Source: Azadirachta indica (Eukaryota; Streptophyta; Magnoliopsida; Sapindales; Meliaceae). From it: a DNA stretch of 64,000 nt. This document shows positions 35,950 to 63,750 of this stretch, one piece after another; position 1 is the stretch's first letter, and every line of letters starts with the position of its first letter. The position numbers and the translations under genes are program-made. The stretch spans positions 9,371,657-9,435,656 of the forward strand of contig CM040449.1 of assembly GCA_022749755.1 (NCBI GenBank). Reading direction: 5' to 3'. The notes beneath the pieces were generated by a model, which saw only the letters and a program-made list of their open reading frames with translations, made no database searches and was not told the DNA's origin.

Positions 35950-36556
35950 TGTTAATGCGGAAAAATATCAACCCTGGTGAGAATAGGATACTGGGTGAGC
36001 TAGTATCCGAATTAGAGATAGATGCCCAATCAGTAGTCTGACCTCAACTTTTTGCACTTATTCCAACTGCGTCTGAGCCTCGAGGAGTTCTTCTAAGATA
36101 GTTCTCCACACATTTTTTAGTCACGAGCCAGGATGTCAAGAACCGTCCTTACCTCATATCCTCGCTAATCTTAGTCCTAAATCGAATAAATCTTCCTACA
36201 ACAAAGAACACAGTCAAAGGGGGAACACTAGAGCTTTTTCGAAAAGTCTACTCCAACGTTTAAGTCAATACCTTGAGGAAATGAATTTAAGACTCGACTT
36301 TATTAGTTCACAATGGCATACATAAAGCAACTTCATGTAAAAAGGAGAAAACCAACAAAAATGCACACAAGAGACCCTGGTGTAGGATACTTGTGACCCT
36401 TTTATGAGAAAAGAATAGTGAATAATTCACAAAATAACACCTATAATGAGTGTTTTAAGATTGTCTTGAGAGAAATCTATGAACAAACAAAATCTCCTTC
36501 TTGTCTTCTAGAGTGAGAAAATGTATATTAGCTTATGTTTTTTTTTTCAATGAGAG
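35950..36556 (-). repeat. Element B 3' LTR, left part
   Basis: Matches 58219-58815 of the right LTR (AAATATCAACCCTGGT, GTGAGCTAGTAT, GTAAAAAGGAGAAAACCAAC and so on). Its remainder is 47241-47956. TGTTAATGCGG at the outer edge is the diverged LTR terminus. Confidence 0.85.
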
Positions 36557-37480
36557 TGCTACAACTTAAAAGTTATAACTCCCAAGTATAGGTTGTCTCA
36601 AGTAATAAAGTTCAGAAATCTGAGTGTCGGTCCACAGGAAATACGTTATACAAGGTTCATAAATCCAATATTCAAATATGATGAAAATAAAATGAATTTG
36701 TTACTTGTTGAATGTAAATTTAATATGATTAATTATTAGGGCATTAGGGATTCATTTTGCTGATAATTATAGAAATCATTCTTTATTCAACTTTTTTAAC
36801 TCAATTAATCACGCTCTACTAACTTCTAATATATTTTTGACCATAAAAACCACCGAATTTCATAAAACATCCTTCTTCAAAGTTGTAGGTGGATGACTCA
36901 TATTTCTAATGGTCTATATCTCACCCTTATTGCTATTTTAGAACGTGAGTTGTGTTGACAATTGTCAGAGATGTTCAAGTCGCATTTCTCCACCGCCCTT
37001 CTAGAATTATAGCTCTTTTTGGTAGCCGACCAGTTAAAATTTGAGAAAGTGTAAAACCTAAATGATTTAGATCCGTTTCTCAGCTTTCTAGATCACCCAA
37101 CTATATAATTTTTTGTTACGTATTTAGGGGGATACGGCCCAAATACATAAGCATGTTGGGCTAGTTTAAAGATGCACTTAAGTTTTGTTGAAGCCCAATT
37201 TTGTCCTATTAATTGCTCGAACTGGTCCAACCTTTAACTTATAAAGTTGTGAAATGATGAGTTTATGTTTGTCCAGCCCAAGAATTGTATCAATTGATGA
37301 TTTGGATTGAAAGATACGCTCATTATACGAAACCTGCGTAAAACCGACTATTTAGTCCAATTCATGTTTTACAATTCAATATAAAGGAATATGCTTCGTT
37401 ATTGGGGAATAGAAGGACATTAGTAAGTGTAAATCATAATATTTCTCTTGATAAACCTACACTTTTAAACATTCCTCGCA
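36557..37480 (-). repeat. Element A 3' LTR (924 bp, internally deleted)
   Basis: Aligns end to end with 45837-47240 except that about 480 bp present in the other LTR (about 46088-46567) are missing at the junction TCAATTA|ATCACG (36801-36810). The missing piece holds the TATA-like signal of the intact LTR. Outer ends TGCTAC.. and ..CTCGCA. Confidence 0.9.
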
Positions 37481-37490
37481 CCCCCCAACC
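37481..37490 (-). other. Element A polypurine tract
   Basis: Minus strand GGTTGGGGGG lies immediately upstream of the LTR start TGCGAGG. It serves as second-strand primer in reverse transcription. Confidence 0.8.
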
Positions 37491-38608
37491 AGCTTTTTAC
37501 TAGTCCTAGTAATCTAAGCAATACCATTTAGAGTTAATTTATAGAATTTACATTCAAAATAAAAATCATTCTTTTCCTTTTCATCTTCTCAAAATAAATA
37601 GACTCTCACTTAAAAATTTACTATATATATGCCAAATACTCATCAATCAAATTATTAATAAACCTTTTTTTTGTGCCTTTGTAACTAATACATGTTATGA
37701 GACTTAATTGGAATCAAACAACATTGGTTCTAAATTTTGTCAAGGTAAATTTCTTTGGGCAAAGATTATTTCTATCTCCAATTTTTTTTATTTTTTGGTG
37801 CATACCCTAACCCATGTAACGAGCTTTGGGCCAATAACTCCCAGACCAGTTGGCCTTAGGGTATTGGGTGTTAAAACACCCCTACGGGTTTAATTACTTG
37901 AGTTAAGACTATGAACTTATTCATACCAAAACCTTACCATTTTACGCGAACATTCACTGCTAATTAGGCAAGAAATCCGGTTACTAAGTAAAAGCTTTGG
38001 TTAGAATTTTTAATTATTTATTTTTTCTATATTTTTTTTCTATTTTTTTTTTGGAGATTTTTTTTTTCTTTAACTCTTAGTTGCTACCTTTGACAAAATA
38101 AAAGAGCTCAAATATTGTAAAATTCCAATATGTCATCCACAATCATGTATCAAAGTGTGTGTGTGAAAGATGGTTTATAAATACTTTACTGATTGAGTAT
38201 TTGAGCAGAATTTGTTATGTGATGATGATGTGAGAGTTCGTAGATTTGATCAATTCAAAAAAAAGTGAATGATAAATTCTTTGTTGTGAAATTCAAAAAT
38301 TAAAACAAATGATAATGCATATCTATTAAGATGTGTCTCAGGAGTAAGATTACTCCTTACTGTACCATCTTTACAAATTATGAATCCAATTTTTTTTTTT
38401 AGTTGTATATATAAAAAAATTGATTACTTATGTCAACTACACTCCCCCCAACCAAATTGCAACATTGTCCCCAATGTTTAAATGTAAAGAGGTACAATAT
38501 AGAGAACATTACCTGAAATAGTAGTTATTGAAACACAAGTAAAACCTGAAACAAACTTAAGCAAAAATAACAAAATGCAATGAGTAAAAAAAAAAGAGAT
38601 AAGAAAAG
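37491..38608 (-). other. Element A 3' non-coding region
   Basis: AT-rich sequence between the LOG-like ORF and the polypurine tract. It contains a short GC-richer segment at about 37805-37890 with a stem-like GGGTGTTAAAACACCC (37868-37883). Open frame 37708-37893 on the opposite strand has no support. Confidence 0.6.
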
Positions 38609-39259
38609 TTACAAATGAAGCGACGAATCCAACTTTCGCTTTTTACTATTTTCACTTGACCATTCTAATCGTGTCATTGTTGGATCTGGTTCATGGACAA
38701 AGTTCTGCAACTGATTGATCAGGTCATTAACAGTTGGAGTAGAAATGAGGAGTTTACGAGCCATCTGTGAAATAAAATTCTGTTCTATAGCATGATCAAG
38801 AAAAGACAACAACTTGTTAAAAAAACCATTAACATTTAACAATCCTACGGGTTTTTGGTGAATGGTGAGTTGTGCCTAAGATGCAACTTGAAAAATTTCC
38901 TCTAAGGTTCCAAAATCACCTGGTAAGGCAATAAAAGCATCTGCAAAATCAAGCATTTTAGCAATTCTTTCATGCATTGTTGAGACCATTAGTTCTTCTC
39001 CAACTGTTTTGCCAATTATGTTACCTGCAGATAAAGCCTTTGGTATGATACCTATGACTTTACTTCCTCCTACATGTGCAGCAGTTGACACACACCCCAT
39101 TAACCCAAGGCTACCTCCTCCATATACTAGGTTAAGTTTTCGCTCAGCTAAAACTCGACCGAGGTTATCCGCTGCTTTTACAAACTCTTCACCTTTCCCA
39201 AAGCTTGATTCATAAAAAACACAAATAGTTTTAAATTGATGAATAGAAGCTCCTTCCAT
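38609..39259 (-). pseudogene. LOG-like cytokinin riboside 5'-monophosphate phosphoribohydrolase, intronless, one in-frame stop
   Basis: LOG enzymes release active cytokinin bases from their riboside monophosphates in one step. The minus-strand frame from the ATG at 39259 spans 216 codons, the usual length of plant LOG proteins. Visible family motifs: VYGGGSLGLMG (residues 44-54), VIGIIPKAL, MHERIAKM (about 96), the catalytic-site loop PGDFGTLEE (canonical PGGxGTxxE, Gly to Asp), then after the stop KPVGLLNVNGFFNKLL and ISTPTVNDLINQL. A single TAG at 38876-38878 replaces what is normally Trp before AQL. The remaining frame stays open to 38609. Plant LOG genes normally have several introns; this copy has none, consistent with capture through RNA. 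It lies in sense within element A, in the envelope-like position, 7 bp or more downstream of a 5' leader with a splice acceptor (39323). An active enzyme from this copy is unlikely. Confidence 0.85.
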
Positions 39260-39322
39260 TTTTTGCAGTCTTTTACCCTCCTCAATGATTCAAATTTTGT
39301 ATCAAAATAAAGAAGTGAGGTC

Positions 39323-39511
39323 CTGCATAATACAACTTAAAGAGAATGCATTAATGAAACCAATAGAGGTAAGCCACTATTATCATAAAGGTTAAAATTT
39401 AAAAATGTAAAAATATCAAAGATAACAGCTAATATAGGAATTTAAAACATAAAACTTTCAACAATGACAGCTAAAAGTAAATATTTATAGATAGTTGTGA
39501 TTGTAACTCAC
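39323..39511 (-). other. Putative intron upstream of the LOG-like ORF
   Basis: Donor GTGAGTTAC (from 39511) and acceptor GTATTATGCAG (ending 39323) on the minus strand would define a 189-nt intron joining the upstream ORF exon to the leader of the LOG-like ORF. Seen as signals only; no transcript evidence. Confidence 0.4.
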
Positions 39512-40082
39512 ATCTTCCTTTGATTTTATGTCTAGTAACGACTTAAACGCCCTCTATAGGTCGAGGATTGGCTTCCCATCCGATTTTCTTACAAATTATC
39601 AAACAGGGTCTTTTAAAGTCAGATTCCCAAGACTATAACGATCACGTTCTTTTTGAAATAGTGTATACAAATTTAGAATTTCACGTTGCACATATCCACT
39701 AGGATACGTCTCAAGAGTCAATAAGATATTATCTAAAGACTCCTTACTTAGTCCATCCTTGACGAATTTAATTTTATCTTCTCTATTAGTAGACACCATC
39801 CCTAGAGAACGACATTGCTTGTTACAGGTTAAACGTGCACATTTGTAACACACTTATAACCTTTTCGCTCTTCGTTTCTTTGCAAAAGAACTCTTACCTA
39901 AACCAAACATGCGTGAAACAAATGAATCAGAAAACTCATCTACTAAATGTACCTTTGCTTCAATTATCCACTGTACATCTTCAGAAATACCTTTTTGCAT
40001 AAGCATTCTTAATCTTGCACACCTAGCTTGATACATTTTTCGTAGAATGTCTTTAGGAAAAGAAGGAAAATATGTTTGCAAT
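39512..40082 (-). pseudogene. Unrecognised Cys-containing ORF in the envelope-like position of element A
   Basis: The minus-strand frame runs from an acceptor-like TTCTTTTTAG (ending 40083) to a donor GTGAGTTAC at 39511. It reads LQTYFPSFPKDILRKMY, ARCARLRMLMQKGISEDV, VDEFSDSFVSRMFGLGKS, a basic stretch KKRRAKRL, a stop, then CYKCARLTCNKQC, LGMVSTNREDKIKFVKDG, SLDNILLTLETYPSG and YTLFQKERDRYSLGN. Two more stops fall near 39598 and another near 39560. The spacing C-x2-C-x4-C-x3-C suggests a small metal-binding unit. It resembles no retroviral domain I know. With splice signals at both ends it looks like an exon of a host gene or of a spliced element transcript. Function unknown. Confidence 0.5.
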
Positions 40083-40324
40083 CTAAAAAGAATGACATCT
40101 ATAATAAAAAGAAGAAAAGAATAGAAAAAGAAGTGAGAGAAAATTTGGTATTAGTAATTTTGGGCAACTGAAAGAACCGACTTGAAAAGTCACGGAGTAC
40201 CGTTATCCGCCACTTGATCAGGAAAGTAACTAAAAACAAACAATGGAATCAATAAAATTAATAACCCAAGAAAACAAGTAATGTATATACAATAAAAAAA
40301 AATCATCCAGTGTTGTAAACAGGT

Positions 40325-41420
40325 TCATTCAAAGTGATAGACTCTATCAATAAGTGAAAAATTCTCAAAGAATGGCTTTAAACGGTGTCCATTAACTTTA
40401 AAAACATTACCATTTTTGGGGTTCTCAATCTCAATAGCGCCATGTGGGTAAACCTTTTTAACAATGAAAGGACCTGTCCATTTTGAACAAAGTTTGCCAA
40501 GAAATAGATGCAATCTTGAATCATACATGTGAAGGTTCAAATGATTTTCTAATGATATGTTTGTCATGAAACACCTTCATTTTCTCTTTGTAAATTCTAG
40601 AATTCTCGTAAGCTTCATTCCTAATTTCTTCGAGTTCATCTATTTGGAGTTTTCTCAACGATCCTGCTTTATCTAAGTCAAAATTAAGCATTTTAATGGC
40701 CCAAAAAAACTTTATATTCCAATTCCACAGGTAAGTGACAAGCCTTTCCAGAAACAAGTTTATAAGGAGACATGTCAAGTGATGATTTAAAAGCAATTCG
40801 ATAAGCTCAAAGTGCATCGGTTAGTCTTAAAAACCAATCCTTACGATACGGGTTTACCGTTTTTTCCAAAATGTGTTTTATTTCTCTATTGGCAAGTTCA
40901 ACTTGTCCACTTATTTGTGGGTGATAAAGGGTAGACACTTTATGTGTAATTCCGTATTTTTTCATTAAATTCTCAAAAACCTTATTACAAAAGTGTAAAC
41001 CTCCATCACTTATTATGGCTCAGGGCACTCCAAATCTTGAAAAAATATTTTCTTTCAAAAATTTCAAGACAATTTTATGATCATTATTTTTGCAAGAAAT
41101 TGCCTCTACCCATTTTGAAACATAGTCAAGTCCAACTAAAATGTATTGATACCCAAAAGAAGATGGAAAATGACCCATAAAATCAATACCCCAACAATCA
41201 AATATTTCAATGACTAAAATAGGATTTAATGGCATCATGTTTCTACAAGTTATTCCACCTAATTTTTGATAACGGTCACATGTTTTACAAAATATATATG
41301 TGTCTTTAAATAAGGTGGGCCAATAAGATCCACATTGCAAGATTTTTGCAGCAGTTTCCTTTGAAGAAAAATGACCACCACATGTTTCTGAATGACAAAA
41401 AGAAATGATATTTTGAATTT
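40325..41420 (-). pseudogene. Element A integrase (degenerate)
   Basis: Minus-strand fragments in order: zinc-finger remnant (CGGHFSSKETAAKI at about 41385, CKTCDRYQKLGGI), catalytic core with D in FDCWGIDFMGHFPSS, D in [16 protein letters not shown] (after a stop near 41020) and E in [13 protein letters not shown], then the C-terminal domain [19 protein letters not shown], ending at 40325. The DDE triad is visible, but stops near 41018 and 40807 and a frameshift near 40740-40540 break the frame. It would have inserted the element's cDNA into the genome. Confidence 0.85.
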
Positions 41421-41499
41421 CATTGTTAGGTACACATCTCCTTATAATTTGGTCAGGGCAATATTTGAAAAGATATGGATCATCCCAAAAGAAATTGCG

Positions 41500-42120
41500 T
41501 ACCTCCCTTAAAAATTTCTTTCTGTCTTGAGCATTTCAATGATTTGGCATTTGACCTGTAACAAGAATATTGACAATATCAGCGAACCAAGGTAAAATAG
41601 AAACATTGAAAAGTTGCTCATCAGGAAAATTGTCATTAATTGGTGTTGTCTTAATCGGTTCTTTAAACATAAGTCTTGACAAGTGATCAGCAACCACATT
41701 TTGTACTCCTTTTTTGTCTTGAATTGTGAGATCAAATTCTTGGAGTAGTAGGATCCACCTAATCAATCTAGGTTTAGCGTCCTTTTTTGAAAGAAGATAT
41801 TTTAATGCTGCATGATTACTAAAAATCATAATAGGTGAGCCAACAAGAGAAGATCGAAATTTATCCAATGCAAATACTACTGCAAGTAATTCCTTTTCAG
41901 TTGTAGAATAATTCATTTGAGCACTATTTAAAGTTTTACTAGTATAGTAAATCACATAGGGTTTTTTGTCTTTTCGTTGTCCTAAAACAGCTTAAACAGC
42001 ATAATCGCTAGCATCACACATGATTTCCAAAGGCAAAGTCCAATCTGAAGGCTGCATGATAGGAGCAGATGTTAGCATGGCTTTAAGTTTGACAAAAACT
42101 TCTTGACATGACTCAGTCCA
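41500..42120 (-). pseudogene. Element A RNase H region (degenerate)
   Basis: The minus-strand frame 41955-41536 reads YYTSKTLNSAQMNYSTTEKE, LLAVVFALDKF, FSNHAALKYLLSKKDAKPRL, then VVADHLSRL. These are the hallmark motifs of the Ty3/gypsy RNase H. The usual Asp in '(Y/F)SDHAAL' is Asn here, likely removing a catalytic acid. A tether toward integrase follows in a second frame (41735-41508). Confidence 0.8.
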
Positions 42121-42121
42121 C

Positions 42122-43321
42122 TCAAAGAGCATCTTTTAATAAAAGACTGCACAACGGTCTTGATATAACACTAAAATCTTTGATAAATCTCCTATAAAAA
42201 CAAGCATATCCTAAAAATGATCTAACATCTTTGATAGACTTAAGAATGGGTAAATTGGCAATTAATTCAATTTTAAATTTATCTACTTCAATTCCTTTTG
42301 ATGAGACAATGTGACCAAGCATAATACCATTTGTGACCATGAAATGACATTTTTTCCAATTAAGCACAAGATTCTTTTCTTCACACCTAATCAAAACTTT
42401 TTCCAAGTTAGATAAGCAATCATCAAATGAATCACCAAAAACAGAAAAATCATCCATGACAAGTTCAAGAAATCGTCCAACCATATCACTAAAAATACTA
42501 AGCATGCATCTTTGAAATGTAGTTAATGCATTACACAATCCAAATGGCATCCTTCTATATGCAAAAGTTCCAAATGGACAAGGGAAAGTGGTCTTTTCTT
42601 GGTCTTCAAGTGCAATTTCAATTTGGTTATACCCAGAATACTCATCTAGGAAATAATAAAATGCATGTCCAGCTACCTTTTCTAACATTTGATCCATGAA
42701 TGGTAACCGGAAATGGTCTTTTCTAGTCATTGAATTGAGTTTCTTATAGTCAATGCACATTCTTCAGCCAGTAATTGTTCTAATTGAAATTAATTCATTA
42801 TTTTCATTTTTGACTACAGTAACTCAAGATTTCTTAAGTACAACTTGTGTAGGACTTACCCATGTGCTATCAAAAATAGGATAAATGATCCCTACATCTA
42901 AAAGCTTGAGAACTTCATTTCTCACTACCTCTTTCATATTAGGATTTAGCCTACGTTGCATTTGTCTAGATGATTTGGCATTATCTTCCAAATATATCTT
43001 ATGTGTGCAAATCAAAAGATTAATTCCTTTTACGTCATTTATTGTCCATCCTAAGGCATGTTTATGCAATCTTAGAATTTTGAGCAACTTACATTCTTGA
43101 AGAACACTAAGTTTAGAAGAAATTATCATCGAAAAAGTTTCATTAGCACCCAAGAAAGCATACTTGAGATCAGATGGTAATGGTTTCAATTCAAGTTTTG
43201 GTGGTTGAACACTCGATGGCATCGATTTATCAGCAAGTTGAGGTAAGTTTTCAAATTTTGGTCTCCATCCATTAACTTCCAAAACCTGAGAAGATTTTAA
43301 AAAAGAATAAATATGAGACAC
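42122..43321 (-). pseudogene. Element A reverse transcriptase (degenerate)
   Basis: Two minus-strand frames, 43321-42824 (N-terminal part ending DVGIIYPIFDSTWVSPTQVV) and 42760-42122 (MCIDYKKLNSMTRKDHFRLP, FYYFLDEYSGYNQI, MPFGLCNALTTFQRCM). The active-site box reads LVMDDFSVF, with the first Tyr and Val of YVDD changed, and the FLDG motif is FLDE. A stop-bearing gap separates the two frames near 42770-42824. The frame ends at 42122 in LCSLLLKDAL. Confidence 0.9.
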
Positions 43322-43359
43322 TTCAAAATTTTCATCAAAATTGAAATTATTGCACCCAT

Positions 43360-44040
43360 TTAAACAGCATCCAAGGGATCAGAAAAAGATGAAACATTAA
43401 AGTAGTCATGAACGAGTTCCTCAATATAACTAACTTGATGCATGTCATCATTTTCACTAGGTTGCTTGCAAATATTGAACACATTCATTTCCAATATCAT
43501 GTTTCCAAAGGATAATTTTAGAACTCCATTTCTACAGTTAATTATTGCATTAGATGTAGTAAGAAAAGAACGTCCTAATATGACAGGAATTTGGGTATTT
43601 GAGTTAGGAACAGGTTGTGTGTCTGAGACAATAAAATCTACAAAAAAATAAAATTTATCTACTTGAACTAACACATCCTCAAGTATTCCTTATGGTACTT
43701 TCACAGAACGGTCAACAAGTTGAAGTGTTGTAGAAGTAGGTTTAAGCTCACCTAAACCTAATTGCTCATACACTGAATATGGCAACAAATTAACACTTGC
43801 ACCAAGATCAAGTAACGCATGGTTTATCCTAAAGTTTCCAATTACACAAGAAATGGTGGGACAACCAAGATCTTTATATTTTGTGGAGTGTTATGTTAGA
43901 TAATTGAACTAACATTCTCAGTTAAAAATGTTTTCTTTTGAACGTTAAGCTTCCTTTTAACAGTGCATAAATTTTTCAAAAATTTGGCATAAAAAGGAAC
44001 TTGCTTAATTGCATCTAACAAAGGAATGTTAATTTTGACT
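43360..44040 (-). pseudogene. Element A protease and preceding linker (degenerate)
   Basis: Pre-protease block VKINIPLLDAIKQVPFYAKF (about 44035), then ISCVIGNFRINHALLDLGAS (active-site DLGA, about 43815), VNLLPYSVYEQLGLG, LVDRSVKVP and, after a stop, VQVDKFYFFVDFIVSDTQP and PVILGRSFLTTSNAIINCRN (43674-43360). The order and motifs are those of Athila-type retropepsins. Frameshifts near 43900 and a stop near 43690 break it. Confidence 0.85.
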
Positions 44041-44052
44041 TGCTTAAAAAAG

Positions 44053-45690
44053 TTAAAAAGTTTCAAAATTTTGGTTCAACTTTTGAATTGGTTGCAATCT
44101 TTGAGGAAAAGAAGCAGAAATAGGGCATTTTTTAACATCACGCATCTTAGGTTCAACATTATTTTCCTCACTCACTAATTTTGATGGTTCTTTAGGTTCA
44201 ATTGCTTTCAAAGAAATAGTGTTATCAATGACCTTACCACTTCGGAGAGTAGTGATGGAGTTGGCATTCTCATGTTGTGTGCAATTTGAGTTAGAATCAC
44301 TTACATGAAATTGACCCACTGGATTTGGTTGTAGTTGAGCAGGAAATTTACCTTTCTCTTGACTGCGCAAAGCTGAGGTCAATGTTGAAAGTGTATTCTT
44401 GATATCATTAATGCCTTGTGATGTTTGATTGTTTATGCTTGTTTGCCCTTGCATGAATGTTTGTAACGTTTCCTCAAGAGTTTTCAAATGTGGTGAATGC
44501 TATGATGGAAAATTTGAAGGTCTTTGAGGTGGTGGATGGGCATGATTATCATTTTTCCAACTAAAATCTGGGTGATTTCTCTATTCAGGATTGTACGTTT
44601 CAAAATATGGAGAATTAGAGGAAAAAGGTTTTTTGAAAGAATTCATAGAATTTGCTTGGTCATGCAACACTTCTTTAAAAATTGGAATATTTGGACAATC
44701 TTGAGTGGAATGTCCTATAACTTCACAAATTTCACAAACTTCATCATTATGCACATATTTGACCTCTTTAACTTTCCTTAATTCCATGACTCCAATCTTT
44801 CTTGTTAAATTTGTAATTCTAGCACTTAAATCATCTTCTTGACTCAAATTATATTTACCCCCACTAGAACTAGGCATATTAGATCTAATTGAATTTTCAG
44901 AGGAACTAGTGGTTTGTTAGGATTAAGAGTTCTCAGCTAAATGATCTAAATACTCTAAAGTTTCTTCTGGATCTTTGTCTAAAAATTCACCATTACACAT
45001 TGTTTCAACAAATTGTTTTGTCTCTAGCGTTAACCCTTCATAAAAGAAACTTATCATATGCCATTTTTCAAAACCATGGTGTGGGTATGAATTCAACAAG
45101 TCTTTAAATCTTTCCAAACATTGAAAATAGATCTCATTTCCTTTTTGACAAAAATTTTGGATTTGTCTCTTGAAAGCATTTGTTTTATGTATTGGAAAAA
45201 ATAGCTTTAAAAATTTGGTTTGCATTTCTTATCATGTGCCTATAGATCTAGGTATTAATGGATTAAGTCATGTTTTTACTTTATCTTTTAAAGAAAAAGG
45301 AAACAATTTTAGTTTAATTATCTCTTCACTACATGTTTGATCCATAAATGTGGCACATACTTCCTCAAATTCTTTTAAGTGTAAATAAGGACTCTCAAAC
45401 TCTAAGCCATAGAAATTAAGAAGTAAAGGGATCATACCGAGCTTAAATATGAAGTTATTTGCACTAAGCGGAAAAATAAAGCATGAAGGAGATGAATTTC
45501 GAGGAGGTTGCAAATATTCACACATGGTTCGAACATGATGATTTTCATTTTCTCCATGTATACTTTCATTTTCAGCCATAGTGTTAGTTGTGTGTGAATT
45601 TAAAGATGAATCAAACAAATTTCTAAAGGAGGTTTCAGAATTACCTTTTACCAATCGATGAGAATGAGGATCATGATACCATCTAAGCAT
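44053..45690 (-). pseudogene. Element A gag (degenerate)
   Basis: Minus-strand frames 45690-45268 (TMCEYLQPPRNSSPSCFIF, YLHLKEFEEVCATFMDQ, IIKLKLFPFSLKDKVKT), 45225-44923 (KLFFPIHKTNAFKRQIQNF, GFEKWHMISFFYEGLT, QFVETMCNGEFLDKDPEE), 44877-44581 (zinc knuckle CEICEVIGHSTQDC) and 44487-44053 (C-terminal linker with TLRSGKVID). This is the Retrotrans_gag domain followed by a CCHC knuckle. Stops at the joins (about 45250, 44900 and 44500) inactivate it. Confidence 0.9.
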
Positions 45691-45810
45691 GAATAAAAAT
45701 AAAAATAAATAACAAGTAGATGAAAAAAATGTTAAAGTTAGAGTTAGAGTTAAAGGTTAAAGTTAGTAAAAGATAATTAAACAAAAACTAATAAACTTTA
45801 TACAAACCGT

Positions 45811-45831
45811 ACTCCCCGGCAACGTTGCCAA
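45811..45831 (-). other. Element A primer-binding site (tRNA-Asp-like)
   Basis: The minus strand reads TTGGCAACGTTGCCGGGGAG six bases past the LTR end. It matches the 3' end complement of plant tRNA-Asp (TGGCGCCGTTGCCGGGGA) except at two or three positions. This tRNA is the usual primer of Athila elements. Confidence 0.75.
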
Positions 45832-45836
45832 AAACT

Positions 45837-47240
45837 TGCTACAACTTAAAAGTTGTAACTTCTAAGTATAGGTTGTCTCAAATAATAAAGTTCAGAAGTC
45901 CAAGTGTCGGTCCACAGGGAATACGTTATATAAGGTCCACAAATCCAATGTCCAAACATGATGAAAATAAAATAAATTTGTTACTTGTTGAATGTAAATT
46001 TAATATGATTAATTATTAAGGCATTAGGGATTCATTTTGTTGCAAATTATAAAAATCATTATTTATTCATCTTTTTTAACTCAATTAAGAATTACTTAAT
46101 AGATAATCTTAATCGAAAGATAAATATATCAAAATACATCACAATACCTCTTTTAAGAAAAGGTAATAAAATAAAATATTAATCATTCAATTTATTTGTG
46201 AAAAATATAACATATCTTGTTCTCAGTTTGTAGAAAATGTGCAAGCATTCAGCGTACTTTTGTTAACAATGAATCAAGCCTCCTAACAAACCAAAACACT
46301 TTTAAAAAATATAATTCACTCAATTGAAAAGATTTTATATTGAGCACAACTTAGAATGATAAAAGAACAATGTTGTAACATCAACAAAACTAAACCCTTA
46401 GCCCTAATTTCTAATTTATAAAGATATTATTTAATTGAAGTTCAAATTAGAAAAAGAAAACAGAAATGGTAAAAATAATGATCTCCCTCTCACTTCTACA
46501 TCTTCCTTTATATAGGTAAAACAAAAGATATTTCACATGTGTGAACATAATTTGTCAATTTCTAATTAATCATGCTCTACCAACTCTAACATATTTTTTA
46601 CCATAAAAACCACTGAATTTCATAAAAACATCCTTCTTAAAAGTTGTAGGTGGATAACTCATCTTTCTAATAGTTTATATCTCACCTTTATTGCTATTTA
46701 AGAACGTGAGTTGTGTTGAAAATTACTAGAGATGTTCAAGTCGTATTTCTCCACCACTTATCTAAAATAATAGCTCTTTTTGGTAGCTGACCAGTTGAAA
46801 TTTGAGAAAGTGTAAAACATAAATAATTTAGATCCGTTTCTTAACTTTCTAAATCACCTAACTATATAATTTTTTGTTACGTATTTAGGGGGATACGGCC
46901 CAAATACAAAAGCATGTTGGGCTGGTTCAAAGATACACTTGAGTTCTATTGAAGCCCAATTTTGTCCCATTAATTGCTCGAACTGGACCAACCTTTGGCT
47001 TACAAAGTTGTGAAATGATGAGTATATGTTTTTCCAGCCCAAGAATCGTATCAATTGATGATTTGGATTAAAAGATACGCTCATTATACGAAACCCTGCG
47101 GAAAACTGACTATTTAGTCCAATTCATGTTTTACAATTCAATATAAAGGAATATACTTCATTATTGGGGAATAGAAGGACATTATTGAGTGTAAATCATA
47201 ATATTTCTCTTGATAAACCTACACTTTTAAACATTCATCA
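45837..47240 (-). repeat. Element A 5' LTR (1404 bp, full length)
   Basis: Ends TGCTAC.. and ..ATTCATCA. On the minus strand a TATA-like CTATATAAAGG lies at about 46506-46516. Compared with the 3' LTR the first about 127 bp (45837 on) differ at 14 positions, all transitions by my count. Confidence 0.9.
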
Positions 47241-47956
47241 AAGAGATTAAAAAATGAGCCAAAACTAAGAGAAGACCCCTTTTACCCTAAGATAAGTGCC
47301 TTTATAAATGTCATCTTTTTTGACTTGTGATTGATTGAAAAGAGTTACCTTAATTTCTCATGTTTGCGCCTTCCCACGTTTTTACCATTTAAAACCTTAT
47401 CTTAGGCCAAAATTATGGACACGCGATGAGTTGGGATTAGTTTTCATGACCTTATCTAAGATTATATGCCACGTGACATGATTTAATTCAAGTAGGAGAT
47501 TACCTTATCTCTTAAATACATATGGCAGAATCCTATTTGCTTTCATCTATAGTCCTCCAAATACTGACAGCATTAGGTAGGGCCCATTTTTAGTCTAGTA
47601 GGAGTTGAACTGTCTCCTAATTAAGTGATTGTGTCAGGTAGTGTCAAGTGGTCCCCCCGAGATAACTTACAAACATAGGAAACCTTTTTCATATTTTTAG
47701 AGACCAAATCCCTTAACTTTTGAGATTATTTTAGAGTGAAGTCCACTCCTTTATTTTCTTTTTGTGGACTATTAGTTATAGGCCACATGACACCTTTCAT
47801 GTGAACATCTTTTAAACTACTTAAGGTTATTTCCCTAGTTAGCAAGGATCCCTCGTAAGGTGGGGTTCAATATGAGTGGCGCGTCTCATAGGTGCTAGCT
47901 AGAGCATTGTGGGCTTACGTACCACCACGTGTTCAGCGTATTCTTTCCCTATAATA
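47241..47956 (-). repeat. Element B 3' LTR, right part
   Basis: Matches 58810-59518 of the intact right LTR (GACCCCTTTTACC, GTGCCTTTATA, CACGTGTTCAGC). Terminal dinucleotide mutated (CTATAATA against CTATAACA). Confidence 0.85.
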
Positions 47957-54121: not shown

Positions 54122-54520
54122 TTAAGAGCTAAATGACCCATCCACATGGAAAATCCATGATGAGGTGATCTCAGTTTTTTTGCCCTCATTCGGGTTGATG
54201 TCCACATTTGGGCACTCCATGTCAAGAGTGAACTCAGCCACAAAGTCAGCTAGGCCTTGTCCCTTAATTGCACTCTGCGGGCAGCAATAAATGTCGAACT
54301 CGCTCTCCACACACCACTTTATAAGCCTTCCCCAACTCTTCAGCTTATATAGGTTTTGTCTAAGAGACAAATTAGTTATGACGCTGATTAGGTAGGCCTG
54401 AAAGTACGACCTCAGTTTTTGCAACGACACAACCAATGCCAAGGCAAGCTGCTCTTGCTTAAGATACCTATTTTCTACATTAGTCAACGCCTTACTAGTG
54501 TAGTACACTAGTTTCTAAAA
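54122..54520 (-). pseudogene. Element B RNase H (degenerate)
   Basis: The minus-strand frame 54508-54122 reads YYTSKALTNVENRYLKQEQL, ALALVVSLQKLRSYFQA, GRLIKWCVESEFDIYC, KGQGLADFVAEFT, then SSWIFHVDGSFSS. The final VDGS motif is the start of the additional (archaeal-type) RNase H found in Tat-lineage elements. Its continuation at 54120-53430 is eroded. Confidence 0.75.
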
Positions 54521-55460
54521 CCATTCTTCCTTTTCTCGGATAAGAACCAAGCTTACTTTAATTATAGACACTACTAGATACATTAACAAGTTATCCCCCA
54601 CTTGAGGCTTAGTTAAGATGGGTGAATTAGTTAAATAAGCCTTCAATTCTTGAAAAGCAGCTTCACAATCTTTACTCCATTAATGCCCTTTAGACCTTTT
54701 TATACCTTGAAAAAAAGGGTGACATTGATCCATGTGCTTAAACACAAACCGGCTCAATACGGTGATTCTCCCTACTAATTTTTGTATTTTCTTGGTTGTT
54801 CGAGGTGATCTCATATCCAAGATGGCCTAGATCTTTTCCAAATTAGCCTTTATCCCTCTCTAATGGACCACGTAGCACAGGAACTTCCCAGTTACCACCC
54901 TAAAAGCAAACTTTTTCGAGTTGAGTTTCATACTATACTGTCTTAGCATGTCAAATGTCTCCTTGAGGTGGGACACGTGGTCAGCTATCTTCATCGACTT
55001 GGTGATCATGTTGTCGACATAGATTTTTATAGTCTTAATGATTTGTTCTTTAAAGAGCTTATTTACTAAGCATTGATATATGGCCCCCGCATTCTTTAAG
55101 CCAAAAGGCATTACTATATAGCAATAAAATCCCATATTTATGATGAAGGAGGTTCCCTCCTCATCAAAGGCGTACATCTTCACCTGGTTATAACCAGAAA
55201 AGGCATCTATAAAGATGAGCAACTTATGACCAATCGTGGCATCAACTAGCTGATCTATTTGAGGTAGCAAAAAGCTATCCTTAGGGCATGCCCTATTCAA
55301 GTCGGTGAAATCGACGCATATGTGCCATTTCCCATTTGGCTTATTTACCAACACAACGTTGGAGACCCATTCCAAATATTTTGTTTCACGAATGAACCCG
55401 ACTTGCAGTAGCTTATCAACTTCCTCTTCGATTGCATCATAATGTTCTTAGTTGAAAGCT
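54521..55460 (-). pseudogene. Element B reverse transcriptase (degenerate)
   Basis: The minus-strand frame 55375-54860 reads MEWVSNVVLVNKPNGKWHIC, VDFTDLNRACPKDSFLLPQI, FIDAFSGYNQV, IVMPFGLKNAGAIYQCL and the active-site box IYVDNMITKS. The second Asp of YVDD is Asn, which removes a metal-binding residue. C-terminal RT/connection sequence continues to about 54530 with stops. Confidence 0.85.
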
Positions 55461-55868
55461 CGTTGGTTTTAGCAAATTAGTCAACAAATGGGATCTATAT
55501 TGGGTCGGTAAAAGATGATGGCGAGATCGATGCCGTCATATCACTATGATCCCAAGCGAATAAGTCCAAATACTTAGTGAGAAATTTCACTAGGGATGTT
55601 TTAACATCCGAAGCAAGATGGGATCCCACCTTAGCTATCTTAGCTGGATCTTCCCGGTTGATTTGAACTACTTCTAACTCCTCTACAGGCTCACCTTATC
55701 GCTCAACTTTAGCTATTATCAGGCCAAGGATAGAAACCTAATGGCATTTCCCAACTAAGGTGGCATAGTAACTCCTCGCCGCTAGTTGGTCCCTGTTAAC
55801 AACCCCGACCTAGTAACTTATGGGAAACTTCAATTTTAGGTGGTATATAGAGACGACTCCTTTAATTA

Positions 55869-56200
55869 CTATAAGAATAGTCTTCCCAAGATTATATTGT
55901 AGAAGTTTGGGCGATCAACAACTATGAAATCAACCATGGTGATTAGTTGAGCAAGGTCTTCTCCAACAATTACCAGTAAGGTGATGCTGCCATACAATAT
56001 CAGTTGGTCTCCGGTGAACCCACTAAAAAAGGTTACAACCTGCTGCATCTTTACTAAACTTAAGCCCAGCTTGCTGAACGCTTCTTTGAATAGTATATCC
56101 ACCAAGTTTACTATATCAACAAAGATACAAGCTACATCCTTACTGATAATTCTCATCGTGGTGACCAAAACGTCAGCATAGGAGTACATCACATCCTAAA
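55869..56200 (-). pseudogene. Element B protease (degenerate)
   Basis: The minus-strand frame 56192-55869 reads DVLVTTMRIISKDVACIFVD, NLVDILFKEAFSKLGLSL and FIVVDRPNFYNIILGRLFL. In the family the active site reads VDTGSS(V/A); here it is VDIVNL, so the catalytic Asp-Thr-Gly is disrupted. Confidence 0.8.
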
Positions 56201-56450
56201 TGTCATCTTTAGTAAACATGATTGGCGTGAAAGCCACTATAGGTAGTTTCGAAGCTCTTTCTGTGAAGTAAACTTCTTGATGGTGTCGGGATAAAGTAGA
56301 ACTTCTAACATAAGCTTTCCTTGCCCGATTAGAGTTTCCTACTAAAGTAGGTCCTCTTAAAATCAAGCTGACGAAATTTCTGTTCTAAGTCACCTAGGGT
56401 CTTGGCTATTCTCGGTCCCTTTATAAGTTTTCTCTTGTCTGCCTAACTCC

Positions 56451-57653
56451 TTAAGTTTTCCCCCTCACCTTGAGCAGGAATTTTTTCAAGTACCTATTAT
56501 CGATCAAATTTTGAATATGCTCCTTTAGATCAAAACAATCTGCTGTATTGTGTGCATAATCTTCATGAAAGTCACAATACTTCTTAGGATTTCTTTTGGA
56601 AGGTAGGGTGGCCAACTTGGGCAGCTTGGTCAAGAGACCTTTGCTCCTATGGCATAAAACACTTGTTCCCTTAACACATTTAGGGGATGGTAAGTTTGTA
56701 TAATGGCAAATTTTCTTCTTAGCAGATGAGACACTTCCCTTAGTGATGGCAATAGCTGGGGCCTTAATGCCTTTGGTTTTGACTGAAGTGGGCGCTTGTA
56801 AGGCAAGGGCGCTTTTTGGCTTTTTGGCTGACACGAGACAAATCTCTGCTAAAGAAGAAGGGCCTAGGTGGCCAAGCATCTTGTTTCTTATTCTCCTTCC
56901 CTTTTTCACTAAGATCTCAACCTTTTCTCTTTCCCTTTTTATGCTGTGCTTCTCTTCAATAGTTATTTGCTTTATGGCACGATCGTAGGCCTCCTTATAT
57001 GAAGTAGGCGGTCTCTACTCAAAGGATATCCACAAACGGCCAGTGTGGAGGCTGTACCAAAAGTTCCTGAAAGTTTCCAATTCTTCATAGACATTCATTT
57101 GCATCACCTCAATATGGCAACGCTTCACATACTCATAATGCAGCTCTTGCCCATTTTATTTAATGTATTAGAGAGAGAAGGGATTCTTGGTTGGCGGCTT
57201 GACCCCTTAAAAATGGCGTACAAATTTGCTAGCAAAAGTAGTGAAGTCTCTTATACTTTCTAACGGGAGCTTCTTGTACCATGTTCTGGCCGACCCACTT
57301 AAAGTAGTTGAAAACACCTTCCACATTATCTTATCGGGCACTCCTTGTACCAATATCAAATTCTAAAAAATTTCTACATAGGCTACTGGGTCTGATTACC
57401 CACTATAAGAGTCAAGCTGTGGCATCTTAAACTTTCTGGGCAAGGTAGCATTTTTTACCTGGTCAGAAAGGAGTGCACTGAAGTTACCTAAGATGTCGAG
57501 TGAGTTGGGTTCCCCCATGCTTGCTTTGAACTCCCTCATTTCTTCTTGCATGACAAGAAATTGTTTTTGCAAACATTCCATATAAAGGGATTTAAAGTTA
57601 TTACCTTCTCCTTGGCGTCTTGCCATCAAAGAGTACTTTGAATCACCGTACAT
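56451..57653 (-). pseudogene. Element B gag (degenerate)
   Basis: Minus-strand frames: 57653-57396 (LSDQVKNATLPRKFKMPQL, DSYSG), broken middle (LVQGVPDKIMWKVFS, ARTWYKKLPLESI, RPPTSYKEAYDRAIK) and 56909-56451 with a Cys-His unit YCDFHEDYAHNTADCFDLKE, the pattern of Tat-type gag. It ends in KKFLLKVRGK. Frameshifts separate the pieces. Confidence 0.85.
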
Positions 57654-58190
57654 AAGTCATTTAAGCTGATTCCTTACTTCCTCAAACCGGTTGCTAGCCG
57701 TCAAATGACGGTCGCTACAGTGACTTCTAAGTAGTTCTCGGGCACTGGTCTTTACTGGGATAGCCGTGGTTAAGCACCCTACTAATTAAGAGTGGTCAGT
57801 TCCACTTGAAAAATGTTGCCCCTAGGCTGATTCCTCAACTGTTTCGCTAGACTTCGAGGCGATGGTGGTGGTATAACCAAGTTGTCGCACAAATACTTCA
57901 TCAGATATTAGAAATGTGACCTGGTTTCAGCTAACTCTTTCACTTTGTTAGCTTTCTCGGCCTCCAAATCCTGGCTGGTTTCTGGCCTTTTTTTTTCCTT
58001 TCTTGCTGGGAGCTGGGTTTGGTGCTCTTTCATTCTAGCTTTCCACAAACTCATCCTAAGCTTGGTTGTGAGATGAATGACTGCCTTGATTCGGCTCCCA
58101 CACAACCTCTCTTCTAACTCTTCTTGGGGTTCTAGAGTTCGACATTTAACTTTTTTGATAGGCATGCAAGTTATAACGGGACCTTTCGTT
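57654..58190 (-). other. Element B 5' leader and gag start
   Basis: Between primer-binding site and gag. The minus-strand frame 58225-57908 is charged (KAVIHLTTKLRMSLWKARM, KEKKRPETSQDLEAEKANK) and may be the N-terminal gag region. No domain can be named. Confidence 0.45.
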
Positions 58191-58194
58191 CTAC

Positions 58195-58214
58195 ATCCCC
58201 ACAGACGGCGGTAC
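58195..58214 (-). other. Element B primer-binding site
   Basis: The minus strand reads GTACCGCCGTCTGTGGGGAT four bases inside the LTR end. It matches the TGGCGCCGTCTGTGGGGA-type primer site common in Tat-lineage elements. Confidence 0.7.
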
Positions 58215-58218
58215 TTTT

Positions 58219-59518
58219 GATACAATAAAATATCAACCCTGGTAAGATAGGATATTAGGTGAGCTAGTATTCAAACTAGAGATGGATGCCTAGTCAATAG
58301 TCTGAGCTCAACTTTTCACACTCATTCCAACTTCGTCTGAGCTCCAAGGAGTCCTTCTGAGATGGTTCTTCACATGTTTTTGAGTCACGAACCAAGATGT
58401 CATAGACCGTCCTCACCTCATATCTTCGCTGATCTTGATCCCAAATTGAATAAATCTTTCTGCAACAAAGAACATGGTCAAAGAGGGAACGACGAAGGTT
58501 TTCCGACGAGCCCACTCTAATGCTCAAGTCAGCAGCTTGAGGGAGTGAATTTGAGGTTCAACTTTAGTAGTTCACAATGACGTACACAAATAACTTCATG
58601 TAAAAAGGAGAAAACCAACAAAAATGCACATAAGGGACCCTAGAGTAAGATACTTATAACCCTTTTATGAGACAAGAACAGTGAATAATCCACAAAATAA
58701 CACCTACAATGAGTGTTTTAATGTTGTTTTAAGAGAAACTTACAAACAAACAAAGTCTCCTTCTTGTCTTCTAAAGTGAGAAAATGTATAGTAGCTTATT
58801 TTTTTTTTTTTAATGAGAGAGGAAAAAAATGAGACAAAACTAAGAGAAGACCCCTTTACCTTGAGAGAAGTGCCTTTATATATCTCACCTTTCTTGACTT
58901 GTGATTGGTTGAAAAAAGTACCCTACTTTCTCATGTTTGTGCCTTCCCACATTTTTACCATTTGAAACCTATCTTGGAGCCAAAATTATGAACACATGGT
59001 GAGTTGGGATTGGTCTTTATGACCGTATCCAAGATTACATGCCATATGGCATGATTTAATTTGAGTAGAAGATTACCTTATCTCTTAAATACACATAGCG
59101 GAATCCTATGTGTTTTTATATGTGGTCCCCCAAATACTGACAACATTAGGTAGGGTCCATTTTCAGCCTCCTATGAGTTGAATTGTCTTCCTATTTAGGT
59201 GGCTGTGTCAAGCAGCATTAGGTGATCCCCCCAAGTGACTTGAAAACATAGAAAACTTTTTTCATATTTTTAGAGACTGAATTGGGATAATTTTAGAGTA
59301 AGGTACACTTCTTTGTTTTCTTTTTGTTGACTATTGGTTATAAGATACGTGGCACCTTTTATGTGAACACCTTTTAAACTACTTGAAATTATTTCCCTGG
59401 TCAGTAGAGATCCCTTGTGAGGTGAGTTTTAACATAAGCGAATCGTCTCATGAGTGCCGATTAGAGCGTTGTAAGCTTGCGTACCGCCACGTGTCCAGCC
59501 TATTCTTACGCTATAACA
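58219..59518 (-). repeat. Element B 5' LTR (intact, 1300 bp)
   Basis: Ends TGATACAATAAAATATC and ..CTATAACA. A minus-strand TATA-like GATATATAAAGGC lies at about 58873-58885. Direct partner of the split left LTR. The frames 58294-58527 and 59383-59577 are chance. Confidence 0.9.

Positions 59519-61525: not shown

Positions 61526-63750
<2,225 letters not shown>

Follow-up and report, generated by a model that had tools for sequence, protein, structure and literature searches.

A LOG gene with replaced pocket residues is carried by an Athila-like retrotransposon family in the neem genome

Here we describe a LOG gene carried by a retrotransposon of neem (Azadirachta indica). The stretch of DNA analysed, 64,000 nucleotides of contig CM040449.1 (C10:9371657-9435656; hereafter the window), contains an old and decayed copy of an Athila-like Ty3/gypsy long terminal repeat (LTR) retrotransposon at 36557-47240 on the minus strand, with a LOG frame inside it at 38609-39259 (-). 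Genome-wide comparison demonstrated that LOG belongs to the element family and not to the window copy alone, and that the 56 distinct neem copies compared all lack two pocket residues. We consider it probable (roughly 0.6, judging from sequence comparison) that an Athila-like family captured a spliced LOG mRNA and passes it on as an element gene for an enzyme with an altered pocket.

The LOG frame of the window runs for 216 intronless codons from ATG to stop on the sense strand of the element, 3′ of the integrase and 5′ of the 3′ LTR, just as the first-pass annotation had described it. Its sole internal stop is a TAG at codon 128 (38876-38878), by which the window copy of LOG is dead. TIGR00730 matches both halves of the frame around the TAG (8.7e-33 and 8.1e-12), PF03641 matches the first half (5.1e-19), and the best relative with a solved structure for the first half is Arabidopsis At2g37210 (3.2e-35); the LOG/Lysine_decarbox domain and fold are present. 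The NF058542 equivalog model, whose cut-off is 300 bits, gave 126 bits, and a Citrus LOG7 likewise scored just 131.5 bits. The motifs quoted in the first-pass annotation do occur in the window copy, but its 'PGD' is not typical of the family, which has the PGGxGTxxE motif together with the catalytic Arg and Glu. Since 48, 54, and 51 of the 56 distinct genomic copies keep G115, C16, and G17, respectively, 'PGD' (for PGG) and 'YES' (for CGS) were rejected as features of the enzyme and represent decay of the window copy.

The genome searched comprised 280.8 Mb in 21 contigs. A search with the LOG segment gave 210 candidates, and the 40 that were scored (window included) were 92–100% identical over nearly the full query, so that the suspicion that other Athila copies carry LOG proved right. 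A PF03641 scan, covering the best 150 of 285 candidate places, includes some members of a second repeat family, L078 (see below). The exact 17-base complement of the Asp-tRNA primer occurs at 58 genome sites. When these were compared with 165 typed LOG places, 30 of the 58 had a LOG in the same sense 3.0–7.4 kb downstream, and none had one in the opposite sense within 2–9 kb on either side; at six sites a same-sense LOG lay upstream at 2.9–8.7 kb, the distance being 2.9 kb in five cases, a tandem-element-like spacing. The condition set in the first-pass annotation, that other copies keep the frame open, was borne out: eight of 40 aligned copies (the window and 39 others), among them one identical pair, have no interruption in the 216 codons, and in an enlarged set of 56 distinct sequences, selected partly by high score, 17 are open from the ATG to at least codon 205. 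Sixty-one of 71 premature stops stand at codons that reach a stop by C-to-T change on one strand (CGA to TGA, CAG to TAG, TGG to TGA or TAG). The proposed capture of a LOG mRNA also agrees with the loss of introns, because the LOG1-type host gene at C13:18081157-18084664 is split into six matched pieces and the element LOG is continuous.

Two observations concern the arrangement of LOG places in the assembly. At C7:6.638-6.928 Mb, 21 of them lie on one strand, mostly 9–13 kb apart, with five primer sites inside the series, each 2.9 kb past a LOG; this spacing suggests that the elements stand there in a tandem array, perhaps close to a centromere. In addition, pairs with equal scores lie far apart on one contig (C7:771333/5951032, C11:1820397/8674430, and C10:1117541/3447989), the first being about 100% identical across 2.4 kb. 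Such pairs are possibly uncollapsed haplotypes, which would inflate copy counts.

To compare the pocket, 290 of 337 proteins were aligned (185–260 residues; 47 were dropped by length), and a quick tree separated 111 element-type proteins from 179 cellular ones. Lys99 and Glu124 are both present in 179 of 179 cellular LOGs; of the element-type proteins, 95 have neither and 14 have both, with one residue changed in each of the remaining two (P0320, Asn/Glu; P0019, Lys/Gln), Lys99 thus being absent in 96 of 111. The 56 distinct neem copies have Ile (53), Thr (2), or Met (1) at position 99 and Gln (52), a stop (3), or Arg (1) at position 124, so that the base/prenyl pocket Lys and Glu of the LOG family are found in none of them. 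On a quick tree made without those two columns, each position requires two changes. The catalytic core has mostly been retained: R98, E121, and G115 are present in 101, 106, and 109 of the 111 element-type proteins, and R98 and E121 in 55 and 54 of the 56 neem copies, beside the 48 with G115. A nine-residue core is whole in 80 of the 111, 67 of which are without the Lys. According to the available text on CgLOG, the Lys belongs to the adenine and prenyl sites and a Glu of the partner subunit to the prenyl site, and alanine at the adenosine monophosphate (AMP)-site residues nearly abolished activity, Ser19 excepted, the mutants not being individually named (PMC4979012); in CgLOGII, a bacterial type II LOG, the available text reports that the equivalent Lys-to-Ala change removed all activity on AMP (PMC5379747). 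Given the loss of Lys99 and Glu124 and the effect of the Lys-to-Ala change in a bacterial LOG, the element LOG as a mobile cytokinin-activating enzyme appears doubtful, and the idea of a family of 'mobile hormone-activating enzymes' in neem found no support in that form. Altered nucleotide specificity seems the better reading.

Relatives of the element LOG were found in other plants. The first protein search yielded 1257 proteins, and the named sources among its 120 listed matches include Melia, Reevesia, Diplodiscus, Parasponia, and Populus x canadensis. Among the matches listed, those from Reevesia are spread over many chromosomes, and the highest identity (90%) is to a Melia azedarach protein; horizontal transfer, which this match suggested, was dropped since the host is itself a member of the Meliaceae. 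A further search added relatives from Xanthoceras and Acer. In both of two unrooted trees, one of 90 rows (with 62 of 77 long first-search matches left after thinning, and a bootstrap that had not settled) and one of 77 hand-picked rows with LOG7 types included, the element-type LOGs form one side of a 100/100 branch. This clade includes proteins from Meliaceae, Malvaceae, Sapindaceae, and Salicaceae, and in the 77-row tree three Populus proteins named LOGL10 fall within it; a Parasponia protein, too short for both main trees, joins it in the quick tree. The clade stands apart from the sampled LOG1/3 and LOG7 proteins and, because the trees are unrooted, no parent gene was found among them. 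No relative was confirmed in viral contigs with P0002 as the query. A second repeat family, intronless and LOG1-type, consists of L078 (C7:771333-771950) and about 20 other places with co-repeating flanks and is distinct from the Athila LOG; its parent is likely the six-piece gene on C13. L078 groups among the LOG1-type cellular proteins and was therefore rejected as the ancestor of the element LOG.

The LOG frame has a neighbour in a small open reading frame (ORF), placed by alignment at 39737-40102 (-) in the window, where it contains one TAG. The evidence on its identity comes from other copies: PF05515 (Viral_NABP), which we take to be a family of plant RNA viruses, was matched above its cut-off of 23 bits in nine of nine copies (24.9–35.6 bits), and of two further copies L048 scored above it (32.8) and L050 below it (21.3). 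The copies above the cut-off are L005, L021, L048, L053, L054, L059, L060, L062, L070, and L075. The same small ORFs match the carlavirus family PF01623, some above and some below its cut-off. The small ORF is open in 18 of 41 copies, and the ratio of nonsynonymous to synonymous change (dN/dS) among these 41 is 0.96 (820 pairs); this comparison therefore gives no support to its retention. In open copies, the LOG frame continues upstream of its ATG. A candidate splice acceptor, ATGCAG/G, lies at 39322-39328 (-), 69 bases upstream of the LOG start, and is retained in 26 of 38 distinct upstream pieces, a level of conservation that does not exceed that of the adjoining sequence.

Under the explanation that we favour, a spliced LOG mRNA would have been taken up long ago by an Athila-like retrotransposon family and transmitted since as an element gene. 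The protein may be made from a spliced, LTR-driven RNA and would form a LOG-type dimer that retains a phosphoribohydrolase-type phosphate and ribose site; in place of the prenylated-AMP precursor that is usual for LOG, its substrate may be a different nucleoside monophosphate, or it may be less selective for that precursor. A basic C-terminal tail suggests action in the nucleus, and the most likely benefit to the element would be a change in either nucleotide or cytokinin signalling of the host cell. Several observations weigh against this explanation. Because 14 members keep both residues, nine of them from Xanthoceras or Acer, altered specificity is not common to the whole clade. The pocket pair is also part of a wider divergence: there are 32 positions, Lys99 and Glu124 among them, at which the cellular proteins hardly vary and fewer than half of the element-type proteins keep the cellular residue. 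The printed Lys test concerned Ala and AMP in a bacterial type II enzyme, and a protein with Ile may still work on a prenylated substrate. Among the LOG copies, dN/dS is 2.0 at dS below 0.02 (26 pairs) and 0.98 at dS 0.02–0.06 (0.51 at 0.15–0.2; 0.70 overall, 1540 pairs), diversity at codon positions 1, 2, and 3 is 0.079, 0.055, and 0.057, and neither measure found strong purifying selection; with dN/dS high at low dS and third positions varying no more than first ones, change within the genome is, as far as these values indicate, mostly neutral decay after insertion. Outside the neem genome, the element context was seen for two proteins, a Melia gene model that opens with the gag start of the neem element (19/25 identical) and an Acer model that opens with the neighbouring small ORF (43/89, gapped), and the Xanthoceras protein checked for the small ORF had none.

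That the carried LOG still activates cytokinin, so that the host cell goes on dividing or stays in a condition suited to transposition and transmission, is a lesser but serious possibility: the element-type proteins mostly retain Arg98, Glu121, Trp128, and the phosphate loop, the 14 members have both Lys and Glu, and the fold is like that of the Arabidopsis LOGs, but the Lys is missing from every distinct neem copy and from most element-type proteins, and the alanine changes described above at this Lys in CgLOGII and at the AMP site of CgLOG removed all or nearly all activity. A more specific proposal, which we make tentatively and regard as rather unlikely, is that the 3′ region acts as an accessory module whose two genes are directed at the host. 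One would encode a viral-type nucleic-acid-binding protein and the other a LOG that, without the cytokinin pocket, would act on a different nucleoside monophosphate signal by reading, hydrolysing, or sequestering it. The module would be kept for overcoming host control, for example silencing or a defence signal based on nucleotides, and its occurrence across rosid families suggests that it would have been kept for long. Alternatively, similar LOG mRNAs might have been captured several times independently, the element-type clade uniting the products of these captures, given that LOG was retrocopied at least twice in the neem genome (the L078 family being intronless and LOG1-type) and that the element context in other species is mostly unseen; the 100/100 branch in two trees, the common C-terminal tail, and the many common replacements make this quite unlikely. 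Very unlikely, in our view, is a LOG that spreads with the element as a neutral passenger without function for it. The dN/dS of about 0.65–0.70, the broken state of most copies, and a variation at codon positions 1 and 2 about equal to that at position 3 would suit such a passenger, but on the same 18 copies the C-terminal part of the integrase, which the element needs, has a dN/dS of 0.669 against 0.655 for LOG, which argues that LOG fares like an element gene, and element-type proteins of about 216 residues, 54–83% identical to an open neem copy, occur in several plant families with their core mostly retained. That LOG entered the window element by itself, as a separate retrogene insertion, is hardly credible and was rejected, since other copies throughout the family hold LOG at the same position; no sign of such an insertion was seen at the window LOG.

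The element in the window is bounded by a 5′ LTR at 45837-47240 (-), which holds about 475 bp (46089-46563) without a counterpart in the 3′ LTR, and by a 3′ LTR at 36557-37480 (-), which ends in TG...CA and is preceded by a polypurine-like tract read from the sequence (37481-37490, -). The target-site duplications at 47241-47245 and 36552-36556, both likewise read from the sequence, agree in four of five bases. The LTRs align over 921 positions with 77 differences (Kimura two-parameter distance 0.090), corresponding to an insertion age of 3.5–6.4 million years at substitution rates of 1.3e-8 and 7e-9. Its coding region is fragmented into short ORFs: a broken gag at 44923-45690 (-) (ORFs 45268-45690 and 44923-45225; PF03732, 4.2e-08 on 44923-45222), a reverse transcriptase piece at 42122-42760 (-) (PF00078, 5.5e-22), an RNase H piece at 41536-41955 (-) (PF17917, 2e-23), and a broken integrase at 40306-41340 (-) (rve, 6.1e-06), whose C-terminal part was aligned to the open frame of copy L027. 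These stand in Ty3/gypsy order within the LTR pair; among the seven window ORFs scanned, gag, reverse transcriptase, and RNase H passed the Pfam cut-offs, and the integrase match lies below its curated one. The primer-binding site at 45814-45830 (-) has two mismatches in the 15 bases searched (chance mean 0.08; at least one match in 7 of 100 shuffles), and we assign it to Asp-tRNA, presumably an Athila trait. In its available text, PMC6317226 lists tRNA-Asp among the primers of non-chromovirus elements and gives an additional archaeal-type RNase H as a feature separating the Tat lineage; no such RNase H was found in the seven window ORFs, where the polyprotein frame is broken. Elsewhere in the window, further retroelement-like ORFs at 54122-58225 (-), reverse transcriptase- and gag-like by eye, are perhaps a remnant of a second LTR element. 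An ORF at 62950-63450 (+) resembles cytosolic ribosomal protein L3.

LOG inside LTR elements has already been reported, and the neem family is a further member of that kind; what is new here is the pocket change, the element-type clade, and the neighbouring nucleic-acid-binding ORF. Two Athila-like elements studied by Steinbauerova et al. in 2011 reportedly resemble LOGL4. Athila and Calypso elements can have an envelope-like 3′ ORF, and the neem family is like them in having extra sense ORFs between integrase and 3′ LTR; in neem these ORFs encode LOG and a nucleic-acid-binding protein of viral type, and neither is envelope-like. Compared with the plant LOG enzymes (At2g37210, At5g11950, and the LOG7 type), the element LOG is alike in fold, length, PGGxGTxxE core, and catalytic Arg and Glu, but it is intronless and element-borne, has a basic C-terminal tail, and has Lys99 and Glu124 replaced. 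In its available text, PMC9289625 reports YgdH/LOG domains in consensuses of Gypsy-type LTR elements from Citrus sinensis and C. clementina, and from Populus trichocarpa without the n5 filter, and calls this consistent with Steinbauerova et al. 2011. Those elements resemble the neem family in holding a LOG-family domain, but the report is a domain count, to which neem adds frames, pocket residues, a tree, the neighbouring ORF, and another host. The same text describes orchid Ty3/gypsy elements with an acquired N6-methyladenosine (m6A) demethylase domain. Like the neem family, they are plant LTR elements that hold an enzyme domain of host type in many copies; they differ in enzyme, host, and element lineage, and the title calls their domain functional (PMC9289625). 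The main text of PMC7264820 has no word starting LOG, cytokinin, or lysine decarboxylase, and the available text of PMC6317226 none starting LOG2, cytokinin, or lysine decarboxylase; among the papers listed in the literature searches, we found no description of the pocket change or of a nucleic-acid-binding ORF in LOG elements.

In summary, element-type LOGs are recorded in databases as cytokinin riboside phosphoribohydrolase genes (e.g., in Melia and Populus), a warning for annotation. The family offers a high-copy case, cheap to assay, in which fold and catalytic core have been kept and two pocket residues changed together across several plant families, and it bears on the reasons for which enzyme genes, once captured, are retained by plant retrotransposons.
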